DNA of 36,883 nt, taken from positions 1-36,883 of the forward strand of contig NZ_QNFZ01000269.1 in assembly GCF_003313395.1 (NCBI RefSeq), in the 5' to 3' direction. The DNA comes from Nonomuraea lactucae (GTDB lineage Bacteria; Actinomycetota; Actinomycetes; Streptosporangiales; Streptosporangiaceae). Every line of letters begins with the position of its first letter. Within the stretch, counting starts at the first letter, position 1. The translations under genes and the position numbers were made by a program. Below the pieces are notes generated by a model. That model did not search any database and was not told the origin of the DNA. It saw only the letters and a program-made list of their open reading frames with translations. This document shows positions 4,234 through 29,748 of the stretch, in pieces.

Positions 4234-5289
4234 TCAGGTTCGTGTTTCGGGGCGCGCTGTTCCCTGGTGCCCGTGGACCCGTCGGGCGACAGGGAAGATC
4301 GCCAGCCCGCTCCGGCGGTCCAGCGTTCCCCACAGTCCGCGGGGCAGGTACAGCGAGACGGCGATGGCGGCGGCGCCGACGATGACGAGGTACCAGACGC
4401 CGCTCTGCGCGAAATACTTGTCGAGCAGGAAGTACACCAGGGCGCCGATCACCGGCCCCTCGACGGTGCCGATACCTCCGATGACCACCATGAAGATCAT
4501 CAGGGCGGAGTACTGCACACCGAAGATCTGGCCCGGTGACGCCACGCCCAGGCCGTCGACACAGATCACCGCCCCGGCGGCGGCGCAGCCGGCGGCGGCC
4601 AGCACATAGATCACGCGCTTGCCGCGGGTCACGTCGACCCCCACCGAGTTCGCGGCGGTCTCGTCGTCCCGGATGGCCTGAAGGTCCAGCCCGAGGCGGC
4701 TGCGCAGCACCAGGTACGTGCCGAGCACGGCGGCGGCCATGACGCCGAGGGCCAGCCAGTAGGTGAAGGCTCGCCGGAGCAGCGGGTCCTCGGTGACGGC
4801 GGCGAGGCCGCGGCCACCCGCTCCGCCCAGCGAGTCGAATCGGACCACGACCAGGCGCACCACCTCCGCGATCACCCAGGTGCCCACGGCGAAGTAGCCG
4901 CCGCGCAACCGGAAGGCCAGGTAGGACAGGGGCCAGGCGACCAGGGCCACGACCGCCGACACCACGATGGTCCCGGTGTACACGTCGAGGCCGTGGTCGT
5001 TGGCCAGGAACAGAGCATAGGCTCCGAGGCCGATGTAGGCCTGCTGCCCGATGGAGACCATCCCCGCGTATCCGGCCAGCAGGTTCCACATCGAGGCCAG
5101 CGTCACCAGATAGCACAGGGTCACCAGTTCGCTGGTGAGGCCGGGCTCGACGAGGTACGGCAGGCAGGCCATGAGCAGCAACACCAGGATCGCTCCAGCC
5201 GGGCCGGCCGCAGCGGCCCGCCCGCCCCGGCTGATCTCAGGTCGGCGCAGGTCCTCGCCGGGGGTCACGACCGCGGATCGGATGGTCAT
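4234..5289 (-). CDS. livM: ABC transporter permease, LivM type
   Basis: This is a 351-residue inner-membrane permease of the hydrophobic amino acid/amide uptake (HAAT) class. About nine hydrophobic segments are visible, with the LivM features NLLAGYAGMVSIGQQAYIGL, the EAA-like loop LRSRLGLDLQAIRDDETAAN and the C-terminal block VVIGGIGTVEGPVIGALVYF. The start ATG (5287-5289) overlaps the livH stop (ATGA), so the two are translationally coupled; a longer upstream open frame lies inside livH and is rejected. Its partner permease is LivH and its ATPases are LivG and LivF. The substrate cannot be read from the sequence; members carry branched-chain amino acids, amides, urea or small organic acids. 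The damaged dehydratase starts about 80 bp downstream. Confidence 0.92.
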   Translation of the reverse strand: MTIRSAVVTPGEDLRRPEISRGGRAAAAGPAGAILVLLLMACLPYLVEPGLTSELVTLCYLVTLASMWNLLAGYAGMVSIGQQAYIGLGAYALFLANDHGLDVYTGTIVVSAVVALVAWPLSYLAFRLRGGYFAVGTWVIAEVVRLVVVRFDSLGGAGGRGLAAVTEDPLLRRAFTYWLALGVMAAAVLGTYLVLRSRLGLDLQAIRDDETAANSVGVDVTRGKRVIYVLAAAGCAAAGAVICVDGLGVASPGQIFGVQYSALMIFMVVIGGIGTVEGPVIGALVYFLLDKYFAQSGVWYLVIVGAAAIAVSLYLPRGLWGTLDRRSGLAIFPVARRVHGHQGTARPETRT

Positions 5290-26190: not shown

Positions 26191-27366
26191 GTGGAAGACC
26201 TGCGCATCGGAGTCGTCGGTCTCGGTCTCCGTACCAGCCTCGCCCTCACCGCGCACAGGCCCGGCCGGGGAGCGGTCGTGACGGCGCTCTGCGACTCCGA
26301 TCCGGCAGTGCTCAAGCGCCAGGCCGGCCTCTTCGAGGCGGCGTTCCTGACGGACGACCACCGGCGCCTGCTCGACCGGGACGACGTCGACGCCGTCATC
26401 GTCATGACGCCCGACGACACCCACGAGCGCGTCGCGATCGACTGCCTGGAGGCGGGCAAGGCCGTCTACCTGGAGAAACCCCTCGCCATCACCGTGGAGG
26501 GCTGCGACCGCGTCCTGCGCGCCGCCCGCCGTACCGGGACCAGGCTGTACGTCGGGCACAACATGCGGCACATGGGCGTGGTCCGGCTGATGCGCGACAT
26601 CATCCGGCGCGGCGTCATCGGCGAGCCCAAGACCGTCTGGGTGCGCCACTTCGTCTCCTACGGCGGCGACTACTACTTCAAGGACTGGCACGCCGACCGC
26701 ACCCGCACCACGGGCCTGCTGCTCCAGAAGGCGGCACACGACCTCGACGTGATCCACTGGCTCGCCGGCGGCTACACCACCAGGGTGAACGCCCTCGGCG
26801 ACCTGATGCTCTACGGCGACCTGCCGCGCCGCGAACCCGGCACGCCGAGGCCGGAGGGATGGCTGCGCGACTTCGACTGGCCGCCCACCCGGCACACCGG
26901 CCTCAACCACGTCGTGGACGTCGAGGACGTGTCGGTGATGAACATGCGCCTCGACAACGGCGTCATCGCCGCCTACCAGCAGTGCCACTTCACCCCCGAC
27001 TACGTGCGCAACTACACGGTGATCGGCACCGAGGGGCGGCTGGAGAACTTCGGCGACCGCCCCGGCGACACCGTCAAGGTCTGGAACACCGGCCCCACCG
27101 AGTACCGCGCCGACGGAGACGTCGCCTACCGGGTTCCCGACGCCCACGGCCCGCACGGGGGCGCGGACGCGGCCATCGTCACCGAGTTCGTCAGGTTCCT
27201 CAGGGAGGGCGGGCCCACGGACACCTCGCCGGTCTCCGCCCGGATGAGCGTGGCGGCGGGATACATGGCCACGATGTCGCTGCGCGACGGCGGCATGCCG
27301 TACGACGTCCCGCCCCTCGACCCGGAGCTGGTCGCGTACTTCGACGGCGGCCAGGTGACCGGCTGA
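26191..27366 (+). CDS. Gfo/Idh/MocA-family oxidoreductase
   Basis: A 391-residue NAD(P)-dependent dehydrogenase. The N-terminal Rossmann motif is VVGLGLRT (a variant of GxGxxG), the conserved EKP (95-97) carries the catalytic lysine, and YVGHNMRHMG and LLQKAAHDLDVIHWLAGG match the family core; the His in AAHDLDVIHW is the usual active-site residue. GTG 26191 with AAGGAC ten bases upstream is the start. Members oxidise sugars, inositols, aminosugars or their derivatives. The position right after the importer suggests that it acts on the imported sugar. A hairpin follows directly. Confidence 0.9.
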   Translation: MEDLRIGVVGLGLRTSLALTAHRPGRGAVVTALCDSDPAVLKRQAGLFEAAFLTDDHRRLLDRDDVDAVIVMTPDDTHERVAIDCLEAGKAVYLEKPLAITVEGCDRVLRAARRTGTRLYVGHNMRHMGVVRLMRDIIRRGVIGEPKTVWVRHFVSYGGDYYFKDWHADRTRTTGLLLQKAAHDLDVIHWLAGGYTTRVNALGDLMLYGDLPRREPGTPRPEGWLRDFDWPPTRHTGLNHVVDVEDVSVMNMRLDNGVIAAYQQCHFTPDYVRNYTVIGTEGRLENFGDRPGDTVKVWNTGPTEYRADGDVAYRVPDAHGPHGGADAAIVTEFVRFLREGGPTDTSPVSARMSVAAGYMATMSLRDGGMPYDVPPLDPELVAYFDGGQVTG

Positions 27367-27367
27367 C

Positions 27368-27387
27368 TCCTGGATGGGGCTCCAGGA
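27368..27387. terminator. Hairpin terminator after the sugar operon
   Basis: TCCTGGA-TGGGGC-TCCAGGA gives a perfect 7-bp stem with a 6-base loop, starting two bases after the oxidoreductase stop codon. There is no U-run, but the place is right for ending the sugar operon before the next module. Confidence 0.6.
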
Positions 27388-27398
27388 CTGGAAACACC

Positions 27399-27433
27399 GT
27401 TCTAACTGTGCAACACTGTTGCAGGATTAGAAC
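27399..27433 (+). promoter_or_regulatory. Nested perfect palindrome abutting the small-gene start
   Basis: Two concentric dyads: outer arms GTTCTAA (27399-27405) and TTAGAAC (27427-27433), inner arms TGCAACA (27409-27415) and TGTTGCA (27417-27423) around a single C. The outer right arm ends on the base before ATG 27434. This is a strong operator candidate for a self-regulated module. The only Shine-Dalgarno-like bases (AGGA, 27423-27426) fall between the arms, so a bound regulator would block both transcription and ribosome access. Confidence 0.75.
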
Positions 27434-27688
27434 ATGGTCGGTCGAGGAAGACATCAGCACAACGAGATCAACGCGGCGCTAAAGGCCATCCGCGCGATCA
27501 ACAGCACCTTCACCGTCGAGGAGGATCACAACGGGCACCGCTGGGGGTGGATCACTTGCGCGTGCAAGGACGCTCCGTTTGCGATCAACAGCACGCCGCG
27601 CAATCCCGGCGTCCACGCAAAGCAAATCCGGAGATGGGCTGGGCGACATGGCATGTGCGTGAGCGGCGATCGAGAGGAGACCTCATGA
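27434..27688 (+). CDS. HicA-like small protein, putative toxin
   Basis: An 84-residue basic protein: MVGRGRHQHNEINAALKAIR, a beta-like EEDHNGHRWGWITCACKDAP, then INSTPRNPGVHAKQIRRWAG and RHG. The arrangement of helix, GHxWG strand with cysteine, STPRNP and a His/Arg helix is like HicA-related dsRBD-fold RNases seen in actinomycetes, where a conserved histidine is catalytic. It is short, the first gene of a two-gene overlap operon, and sits behind a nested palindrome; these are all toxin-antitoxin traits. Function is inference; the residue that would act as the catalytic His (perhaps His35) is not proven. Codon bias is weaker than in the flanking operons, fitting recent acquisition. Confidence 0.7.
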   Translation: MVGRGRHQHNEINAALKAIRAINSTFTVEEDHNGHRWGWITCACKDAPFAINSTPRNPGVHAKQIRRWAGRHGMCVSGDREETS

Positions 27689-28206
27689 CTATCTGGGACT
27701 TTCGGGTCATGCTCAACCGGCAGCCGGACTCTGCCGAGTTCGATCAGCTCATGGAGGCCGGAATGGATGACTGTGCGCTGGTCGGAGGCTCGGAGCCATA
27801 CTTCATGTGCGATCGTGAAGCGGGCAGCCTCCTTGAGGCGATCATGTCCGTGCTGCTCCAGATCAGGACCGTCGACGGGCTCTGGGCCGTGGGCGTGGGG
27901 CATGACGACGCGGTGACGCTGGGCGACGCGGCGCGGCGGCATGGCGGGCGGACGCAGGCCAGCATGCGGCAGCTGGCGAGCGGCCAGCGGGGGCCCGGCG
28001 GGTTCCCGCCGCCGCTCGTCGAGGCCGACAACATCAGCGTCTACTCCTGGGGCGAGATCTCCGAATGGCTCCGCAGCCGGATGGGCGATGACATCCCGCG
28101 GGTCGACCGCGACATCGCGCTGGCCGACGCGGCTGTCAAGCTGGCCTGCCGGGCGCGGGCCACGCATCGGGAGTCCCAGGTGCGCCGCCTGCTCGAAGTG
28201 GCCTGA
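27685..28206 (+). CDS. HTH protein, putative antitoxin/repressor partner
   Basis: A 173-residue protein whose ATG overlaps the stop of the small gene (ATGA). The N-terminal 75 residues (MTIWDFRVMLNRQPDSAEFD, MEAGMDDCALVGG, FDR-like MCDREAGSLLEAI) form an alpha/beta domain unlike HicB. The C-terminal half holds a helix-turn-helix: VTLGDAARRHGGRTQASMRQ, LASGQRGPGGFPPPL, then SVYSWGEISEWLRSRMG, a MerR/excisionase-like pattern. It fits a DNA-binding partner that neutralises the first protein and binds the palindrome. The family occurs in actinomycetes as uncharacterised DNA-binding proteins. It is convergent with the SPFH gene, 25 bp away, with a small CGCC-TTCG-GGCG hairpin between. Confidence 0.75.
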   Translation: MTIWDFRVMLNRQPDSAEFDQLMEAGMDDCALVGGSEPYFMCDREAGSLLEAIMSVLLQIRTVDGLWAVGVGHDDAVTLGDAARRHGGRTQASMRQLASGQRGPGGFPPPLVEADNISVYSWGEISEWLRSRMGDDIPRVDRDIALADAAVKLACRARATHRESQVRRLLEVA

Positions 28207-28231
28207 CCGCCTTCGGGCGTGCGGTGTCCGG

Positions 28232-29314
28232 CTACCGTTCCTGGCGGTCCTTGTCGGTCTCGGGGTTCAGCTCGGGGAACGGCGACGGCTCGGGTGTGCC
28301 CGGGGCGAGCTGGCGGGGGCCGTTGGGGCTCTCCGCCTCCTGGGCGTCCGCGACCGCCTCGGCCGCCGCCTCCGCGGCCTTGGCGATCTCCTCGTCCATC
28401 TCCGCGCTCTCCGGGATCTCGTCGCGGGTGGCCGTGGACCTGGGCAGGGCCTCGGTGAACGCCTTGGAGACGCCCTGCAGGGCCGAGGTGACCTCGCTCG
28501 GGATCACCCAGAAGGTGTTGCCGGAGCCCTGCGCGAGCTGGGGCAGGACCTGCAGATACTGGTAGGCCAGCAGCTTCGGGTCGGGGTCGTTGCGGTGGAC
28601 GGCCTGGAACACCTGGTCGATGGCCCGCGACTGGCCCTCGGACTCCAGGATGGCGGCGGCGCGCTGGCCTTCGGCCCGCAGGATGCGGCTCTGCTTGTCA
28701 CCCTCAGCCGTGAGGATCTGCGACTGGCGCTGCCCTTCGGCGTTGAGGATGGCGGCCCGCTTGTCGCGCTCGGCCCGCATCTGCTTCTCCATCGCGTCCT
28801 TGATGGTCTTGGGCGGGTCGATGGCCTTTATCTCGACGCGGTTGACGCGGATCCCCCACTTGCCGGTGGCCTCGTCGAGCACGCCGCGCAGTTGGCTGTT
28901 GATGGTGTCGCGGGAGGTGAGCGTCTTCTCCAGGTCCATGGAGCCGACCACGTTGCGCAGCGTGGTGACCGTGAGCTGCTCGACCGCCTGGATGTAGTTG
29001 GCGATCTCGTAGGCGGCCGCCCGCGGGTCGGTGACCTGGAAGTAGAGGACGGTGTCGATCTCGACGACCAGGTTGTCCTCGGTGATGACCGGCTGCGGGC
29101 GGAAGGACACGACCTGCTCACGCAGGTCGATCATCGGGTAGACGCGGTCGATGTACGGGATGACAAAGTTGAGTCCGGGCTTGAGCGTCCGGTGGTATCG
29201 GCCGAGGCGTTCGACGTTGCGCGCTCGGGCCTGGGGAACGATCCGCACGGCCTTGAGCACGGTGATCATCGCGAGGACTATGACGAGCAGCCCGACCACC
29301 AACAGCGGATCCAT
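28232..29314 (-). CDS. SPFH-domain (stomatin/prohibitin-like) membrane protein
   Basis: A 360-residue protein with an N-terminal anchor (MDPLLVVGLLVIVLAMITVL), an SPFH domain (VERLGRYHRTLKPGLNFVIP, REQVVSFRPQPVITEDNLVV, LRNVVGSMDLEKTLTSRDTI) and a coiled-coil of AEG-containing repeats (ILNAEGQRQSQILTAEGDKQ and on). The tail is acidic, Pro- and Ala-rich. ATG 29312-29314 is chosen because GGGAG is five bases upstream; GTG 29320 is two codons earlier. Such proteins form membrane scaffolds that organise proteases or lipid domains. It is paired with NfeD, a standard partner. Confidence 0.93.
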   Translation of the reverse strand: MDPLLVVGLLVIVLAMITVLKAVRIVPQARARNVERLGRYHRTLKPGLNFVIPYIDRVYPMIDLREQVVSFRPQPVITEDNLVVEIDTVLYFQVTDPRAAAYEIANYIQAVEQLTVTTLRNVVGSMDLEKTLTSRDTINSQLRGVLDEATGKWGIRVNRVEIKAIDPPKTIKDAMEKQMRAERDKRAAILNAEGQRQSQILTAEGDKQSRILRAEGQRAAAILESEGQSRAIDQVFQAVHRNDPDPKLLAYQYLQVLPQLAQGSGNTFWVIPSEVTSALQGVSKAFTEALPRSTATRDEIPESAEMDEEIAKAAEAAAEAVADAQEAESPNGPRQLAPGTPEPSPFPELNPETDKDRQER

Positions 29315-29316
29315 GA

Positions 29317-29748
29317 TCACTCCCTGGGGTAAACGAGGGCTGTGGCCCCTTCGATCTCAATGATGTCGACGGTCGCCCCGGTGGGGATCACCAGGCTCTC
29401 GTCGTAGGCGCGGGCGGACCATTCCTCGCCCCCGATGCGGATCCTGCCGTCGCGCCCCGTGACCTCCGAGACGACGTAGGCGGGCTTGCCCAAGAGGGCC
29501 TCCACGCCGAAGCGCTGAAGTTGTGGCTGGCGGACGTGGCGTACGGCGATCGGCCGGACCACGAACAGGCCGGCGGTCGAGGCCAGGGCGAACACCAGCA
29601 ACTGCAGGGGAACGGGCAGGCCGACCGCGGCGCCCGCCGCGGTCAGGAGAGCGGCGGCACCGAGCAGCCCGAGCGAGGCGGTGAGGGTGAAGATCTCCGC
29701 TACGCCGAGGACGATCGCGAGGATCACCCAGATGATCCATTCATCCAT
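29317..29748 (-). CDS. NfeD-family membrane protein
   Basis: A 143-residue short-form NfeD protein: MDEWIIWVILAIVLGVAEIF and two further hydrophobic segments, then an OB-fold domain (LLGKPAYVVSEVTGRDGRIR, GGEEWSARAYDESLVIPTGA, VDIIEIEGATALVYP). The WSARA and VIPTGA motifs are typical. It lies two bases upstream of the SPFH gene, the usual operon arrangement, and probably forms a complex with that protein at the membrane. Longer upstream open frame is disregarded because MDEWIIW is the usual N-terminus. Confidence 0.93.
   Translation of the reverse strand: MDEWIIWVILAIVLGVAEIFTLTASLGLLGAAALLTAAGAAVGLPVPLQLLVFALASTAGLFVVRPIAVRHVRQPQLQRFGVEALLGKPAYVVSEVTGRDGRIRIGGEEWSARAYDESLVIPTGATVDIIEIEGATALVYPRE

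Follow-up and report, generated by a model that had tools for sequence, protein, structure and literature searches.

What kind of module is formed by two short, overlapping genes that lie directly behind a palindrome in Nonomuraea lactucae? In the stretch of 36,883 nucleotides that we analysed (hereafter, the window), gene A (27,434–27,688, plus strand) starts with ATG and encodes a basic protein of 84 residues (computed pI 9.5), and gene B (27,685–28,206, plus strand) encodes an acidic protein of 173 residues (pI 5.0). The initial annotation had described them as a translationally coupled two-gene module, and both open reading frames as well as the coupling were confirmed: the end of A and the start of B share the four bases ATGA, and this overlap is kept in 15/15 Nonomuraea loci with an unbroken A. 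The median dN/dS was 0.29 for A, taken over the 100 of 105 pairs in which dS was below 2, and 0.25 for B, where all 105 pairs were used; the locus L025, where A is broken, was left out of both the dN/dS and the overlap counts. Both genes are under purifying selection, and A–B is a real, maintained pair in Nonomuraea.

When the two proteins were compared with PADLOC-DB, A of the window matched PDC-M06A (E = 1.1e-9) and B matched PDC-M06B (E = 1.5e-10), as did 12/12 members of the A family and 16/16 members of the B family. The likeness to PDC-M06 thus extends to both window genes, with B next to A, but the window proteins match much more weakly than the best members do (1.1e-9 against 1e-37 for A; 1.5e-10 against 2.5e-19 for B), which marks the Nonomuraea branch as divergent. 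PDC-M06 is entered in PADLOC-DB as a candidate two-gene phage-defence system without a description, and neither the name nor a mechanism was found in the literature searched. These profile matches show that the pair has an existing catalogue entry, PDC-M06, which the initial annotation had missed, and that the window holds a divergent member.

The AlphaFold2 model of A (pLDDT 74, moderate) consists of a helix at residues 4–22, strands at 26–33, 36–42 and 49–52 and a helix at 58–75. This alpha-beta-beta-beta-alpha order of elements is that of HicA, and the structural scores to HicA are weak. HicA 6g26_F had the top probability among the 50 Foldseek matches listed (0.75, TMt 0.62, E = 0.53), and in VIA-align the Z score of A against HicA was 4.3, below those of unrelated rows (up to 6.1). 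A comparison of profiles gave a score of 22.5 for A against HicA (P = 5.5e-4), which none of 200 column shuffles reached (maximum 14.7), over a match that covers only 25 columns with 30% probability; two halves of the HicA set score 171 against each other on the same scale. The score was 22.8 when the Nonomuraea rows were omitted, and A against HicB gave 13.9. The A profile was built from 25 rows, the broken A of L058 being left out, and the HicA profile from 22 of 25 fetched loci (L086, L091 and L093 were dropped at the stage of compiling the loci, with no test applied). The Pfam model of the HicA toxin, PF07927, had no match in A of the window at E ≤ 5 and none in the 12 A members at E ≤ 1; elsewhere in the genus it matched weakly in 2/55 genomes and exceeded its cut-off in 0/55.

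The profile alignment also points to a particular residue. His35 of A, which is invariant in 12/12 members and lies in the predicted beta1–beta2 turn between strands 26–33 and 36–42, aligns with the His of the GSH motif of HicA, and Gly34 is one place off the essential Gly of HicA. As described for the Burkholderia pseudomallei HicA in PMC3969222, His24, in the beta1–beta2 turn, is required for toxicity. The HicA-like fold pattern that the initial annotation had assigned to A, and had proposed to check by structure prediction, is therefore largely right: A is modelled as a remote HicA relative with a predicted HicA-like fold. The link to HicA with His35 named as the candidate catalytic residue would be a new contribution.

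Protein B looks quite different from the usual partner of HicA. Its AlphaFold2 model (overall pLDDT 72) starts with a beta-alpha-beta-beta-alpha-beta domain of ferredoxin-like order (about residues 1–74; block pLDDT 86–94 over residues 1–70), which is followed by a winged helix-turn-helix (HTH) at about 77–133, predicted with low confidence (pLDDT mostly below 60), and by C-terminal helices. In this prediction the order of elements differs from the partial RNase H fold of HicB. Against a profile of HicB N-terminal domains (20/20 loci used, matched part only), B scored 11.8, below shuffled controls that reached 21.9, and a Pfam scan of the 16 B members at E ≤ 1 contained no HicB family. Taken together, the profile, the Pfam scan and the predicted ferredoxin-like plus winged-HTH architecture indicate that B is not HicB, in line with the earlier description of a protein with an HTH and no visible HicB fold.

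We next consider the region upstream of A. The proposed operator is a 35-bp palindrome at 27,399–27,433, centred on 27,416, with the concentric arms GTTCTAA/TTAGAAC and TGCAACA/TGTTGCA; it overlaps the proposed −10 element and its last base lies just before the ATG of A, as was noted when the sequence was first read. Pairing at 14 of the 17 positions is the maximum among all 36,849 35-mers of the window and is reached once. The inner 15-bp core TGCAACACTGTTGCA (27,409–27,423) has a single occurrence in the 8.67-Mb genome, even allowing one mismatch. With the window alone the significance was marginal: when the 75 bases upstream of A were searched for their best 25-mer, the fraction against 1,000 shuffles was 0.044. 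Conservation across Nonomuraea is the stronger evidence. Among 16 Nonomuraea genomes including that of the window (15 distinct sequences), 14 carry the core unchanged and two differ from it at one base, 9 of the 17 pairs are invariant, and the outer arms vary between genomes and are mostly still paired. With G–T counted, 86.3% of the palindrome cells pair, against 20.9–43.3% when the partner is slid by 1–3 bases. Of 500 shuffles, 9 were equal or better in the number of paired cells, 3 in the covariation score, 17 in the cells changed on both sides (7 observed), 51 in the number of pairs with both sides changed (3 observed) and 220 in the pair types; the covariation is modest.

A candidate −35 element at 27,388–27,393 (plus strand; CTGGAA here and TTGGAA in most relatives) belongs to a conserved upstream block and, at a distance of 17–18 nt, precedes CAACAC/AACACT within the palindrome. 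Because a consensus scan of 27,300–28,300 found no sigma-70-type promoter, we only infer this −35 assignment. Since some of the palindrome pairs are G–T, we kept in view that the palindrome might act as an RNA hairpin in place of a DNA operator; against this, the inferred transcription start falls inside the palindrome, which makes a hairpin less probable. The terminator that had been placed between the upstream operon and the pair was not recovered: a scan of 27,300–28,300 found no intrinsic-terminator-like site, and the 7-bp inverted repeat TCCTGGA/TCCAGGA after the upstream gene has no T run behind it.

Palindromes were also seen by eye upstream of A in distant relatives. In a shuffle test of nine distant loci plus the window (the A start of L028 is approximate), the fractions ranged from 0.006 to 0.835 over the ten loci and the upstream palindromes of the nine distant loci were mostly near chance, and we do not claim operators there.

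The two genes differ in their translation signals. A strong Shine-Dalgarno sequence for B, AGAGGAG, is present inside the end of gene A (27,673–27,679, plus strand), and its duplex with the anti-Shine-Dalgarno sequence was calculated at −13.0 kcal/mol, compared with −4.1 kcal/mol for A. The means were −11.8 kcal/mol for B and −2.9 kcal/mol for A, and B was stronger in 17/17 loci, a count that takes in the broken L025 as well as L004, which comes from another family, and is confined to this operon. Leaderless mRNAs are common in actinomycetes, and the weak Shine-Dalgarno sequence of A could also be a sign of a leaderless mRNA.

Within the genus, the profile of A found matches in 19/55 Nonomuraea genomes, 15 of which carry A and B as immediate neighbours with the same orientation. 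One of the 19 genomes, G398 (Nonomuraea aurantiaca; its contig is that of L025), shows A spread over two frames and an intact B; in G400 a diverged A is found with B at another place; one genome has fragments of both genes and one a weak A match without B. In L025, the split of A over two reading frames covers positions 5,001–5,251 and the adjoining B is intact.

The module adjoins an SPFH/stomatin-like gene (28,232–29,320), which is found in 55/55 Nonomuraea genomes. It follows B in 8 of the 10 loci of the first set, the other two ending at a contig edge, and in 5/5 further Nonomuraea loci; we regard it as a fixed neighbour that is not obviously part of the module. Upstream of A, an oxidoreductase gene was seen in 9/10 loci, either adjoining or within 3 kb, and was absent from the 5 kb of L023. 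Among the best 30 of the 55 SPFH loci, the pair is present in 8. Two loci, L119 and L120, end near the site and have their pair on another contig, while in L099, L108, L110, L116 and L122 the oxidoreductase gene lies about 80–550 bases from the SPFH gene and no A or B could be detected. The flanking loci compared gave no sign of mobility of the pair within the genus. The constant SPFH neighbour and the sites where the oxidoreductase and SPFH genes stand without the pair indicate that the locus was lost, or gained, at one site in the genus. At another of these 30 SPFH loci (L123, 2,656–2,814), a C-terminal remnant of B (64% identity, residues 120–172) without A lies beside the SPFH gene, a decayed module.

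Outside the genus, PDC-M06A matches were detected in 13/296 genomes of the phylum, the genome of the window included. B lies just downstream in 8/8 of the non-window matches with E < 1e-10, and four weaker matches have no B. Together with the 15/19 genomes of the genus, this bears out the conserved gene order and co-occurrence for which a profile search across actinomycetes had been proposed. A search of the class from the side of B found matches in 14/394 genomes: 6 with an intact A upstream, 2 with a diverged A, 1 with an A fragment and 5 without a recognisable A. L015, one of these five, is itself a doubtful B; A was not found beside B in L009, L010, L011 and L013. In L058, one of the eight strong matches in the phylum, A contains a stop and B is whole. 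The pair is also carried by Cronobacter, Vibrio, Streptomyces and Picosynechococcus plasmids, and a plasmid of M. intracellulare has A over two reading frames (L030, 3,733–3,995) with an intact B. Two E. coli plasmids, L027 (CP057419.1, 3,956–4,513) and L032 (NZ_CP074008.1, 3,959–4,576), have B without a recognisable A upstream, and the neighbours of the latter resemble those of the Cronobacter locus L026 and of SSU5-type phage-plasmids. It is possible that B of these two plasmids is an orphan antitoxin.

We found no intact strong A without B. The counts of A without B and of B without A come from overlapping samples, in which A and B were sought within the locus flanks. In L059 (1,223–1,591, minus strand), another of the eight strong matches in the phylum, an intact A is followed by a B that is reduced to the N-terminal domain, corresponding to just the first 75–81 residues of related B proteins; no sign of the HTH part was seen within the 3.2-kb locus. 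This short B may be a naturally minimal antitoxin, or its gene may have been truncated.

Phages carry the pair as well. The A and B proteins of the window had no match in 50,697 phage records by tblastn, and pattern scans of viral contigs derived from the profiles confirmed no relative. Starting from more distant members, the Cronobacter B reached Salmonella phage SSU5, Escherichia phage Cyrano and Gordonia phage Horus (in Horus over half of the B length), and the A proteins of Cronobacter and L007 reached SSU5 and Cyrano; the pair is present in both SSU5 and Cyrano. The A–B order in SSU5 and in Cyrano (CYRAN_51/CYRAN_50) is the same as in the window, but there the genes belong to mobile phage-plasmids and do not overlap, and the name HicB comes from annotation, whereas B of Nonomuraea is not HicB. 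Where PMC9928086 deals with toxins that adjoin a recognised or predicted antitoxin, the Cyrano relatives are given as a HicA toxin and a putative antitoxin HicB; if our assignment of B is correct, the label HicB on the phage-plasmid relatives would be doubtful.

The toxin-antitoxin layout that the initial annotation had proposed is supported by the gene overlap, the linkage of A and B and the palindrome before A, and we think it fairly probable that A–B is an autoregulated, type II toxin-antitoxin-like module in which A is a remote HicA-type toxin and B its antitoxin and repressor. In such a module A would be a small dsRBD-like protein in which His35, in the beta1–beta2 turn, acts in RNA cleavage, and the ferredoxin-like N-terminal domain of B would hold A. 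The winged HTH of B would bind the 35-bp palindrome over the promoter and the A start and repress the operon, and translation would keep B in excess, with a weak Shine-Dalgarno sequence for A and a strong one for B overlapping the A stop. Once B is lost, for example upon phage attack or loss of the element, A would be freed and growth would stop; the module is possibly anti-phage.

The occurrence of B beside a broken or missing A, with no intact strong A found without B, is the pattern expected of a toxin with its antidote. In L059, the short B is consistent with an N-terminal domain that binds the toxin, but its lack of the HTH means that autorepression by B is not universal. This makes the autorepression step less secure and leaves the toxin-antidote interpretation, and our estimate, as they were. 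We counted against the module that in Nonomuraea it occupies one chromosomal site beside the SPFH gene.

The closest described arrangement is class 3 of HicAB, with an HTH-type HicB, as presented in PMC10865869. The likeness consists in a toxin-like gene that comes first, a putative HTH antitoxin that comes second, a palindromic operator, which is a proposed one in the window, and, on the side of A, the predicted HicA-like fold and the aligned His; the difference is that the putative antitoxin of the window has a predicted non-HicB fold and that A has no match to PF07927. Section 5 of PMC10865869 lists 14 contexts of HicA, none with a partner like B. We propose tentatively that the pair represents a distinct toxin-antitoxin class with members in actinomycetes and cyanobacteria as well as on proteobacterial plasmids and phage-plasmids. 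Its toxin would be a remote HicA-type RNase, and the antitoxin holding it, of ferredoxin-like plus winged-HTH architecture, would have no relation to HicB. If so, the B genes without A on E. coli plasmids would be antidotes against the A of another element, and, should they neutralise it, would offer a small model of toxin-antitoxin warfare between mobile elements. To the PDC-M06 entry our analysis adds the proposed link to HicA, the evidence against B being HicB, the difference in translation signals and an operator-like palindrome that is unique in the genome. PDC-M06 can thereby be put to the test as a proposed HicA-type toxin, with one His named as candidate catalytic residue, that is paired with a non-HicB antitoxin and a single exact operator-like palindrome.

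A different reading is that A and B form a two-protein, nucleic-acid-binding regulator without toxicity, in which an Lsr2-like A and a B of the excisionase/AlpA type control their own operon and perhaps others. All 16 B members match PHROG 2620, "excisionase and transcriptional regulator" (E = 1.4e-11 for B of the window), and B is annotated in SSU5 records as an AlpA-like or excisionase-type regulator. For A, matches to the Pfam family Lsr2_DNA-bd (E = 0.0033; 17.2 bits, with the cut-off at 26.9) and to Lsr2-like PHROG families (E = 0.11–0.12) are weak. However, the Pfam match spans 17 residues and occurs in 1/12 A members, and on this count we rejected an Lsr2-like DNA-bridging protein as the main reading of A. 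With a single genomic copy of the core palindrome, no regulon is visible, and the broken or missing A genes beside B, together with the Shine-Dalgarno contrast, fit a toxic A better. We therefore consider a non-toxic regulator unlikely.

The pair could also be a phage-defence effector and sensor instead of a classical toxin-antitoxin system, with B sensing infection, activating the effector A and also regulating expression. Both genes fall in PADLOC candidate families, and the extra ferredoxin-like domain of B could sense a ligand, as ACT and PII domains are among its weak Foldseek neighbours. In addition, a weak match to mad1, a gene of the MADS defence system, was seen in 3/16 B members (best E = 0.00087). 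The PADLOC listing is, however, a nomination and not a test, and a B that persists beside a decayed or missing A fits an antidote, not an activator, so that we regard such a role as quite improbable. An ordinary HicAB module with a diverged HicB antitoxin, to which the annotation of the Cyrano relatives would point, is at odds with the HicB profile score of B, which is below its shuffled controls, and with the Pfam scan of the 16 B members, and is very improbable.

Two further observations concern the surroundings and the wider relatives of the toxin-antitoxin-like module. On the M. intracellulare plasmid, a VbhA-type antitoxin gene and a MazEF-type pair lie near B (L030, 1,468–7,444), forming a cluster of toxin-antitoxin genes. 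In L014 (532–1,203) and L012 (922–1,215), a diverged A-like domain with the pattern HP...SDH.[WF]G...C...SGRGGE precedes a B-like gene, suggesting from the sequence pattern that A may belong to a wider superfamily; in L014 the A-like domain continues into a long coiled-coil-like tail.
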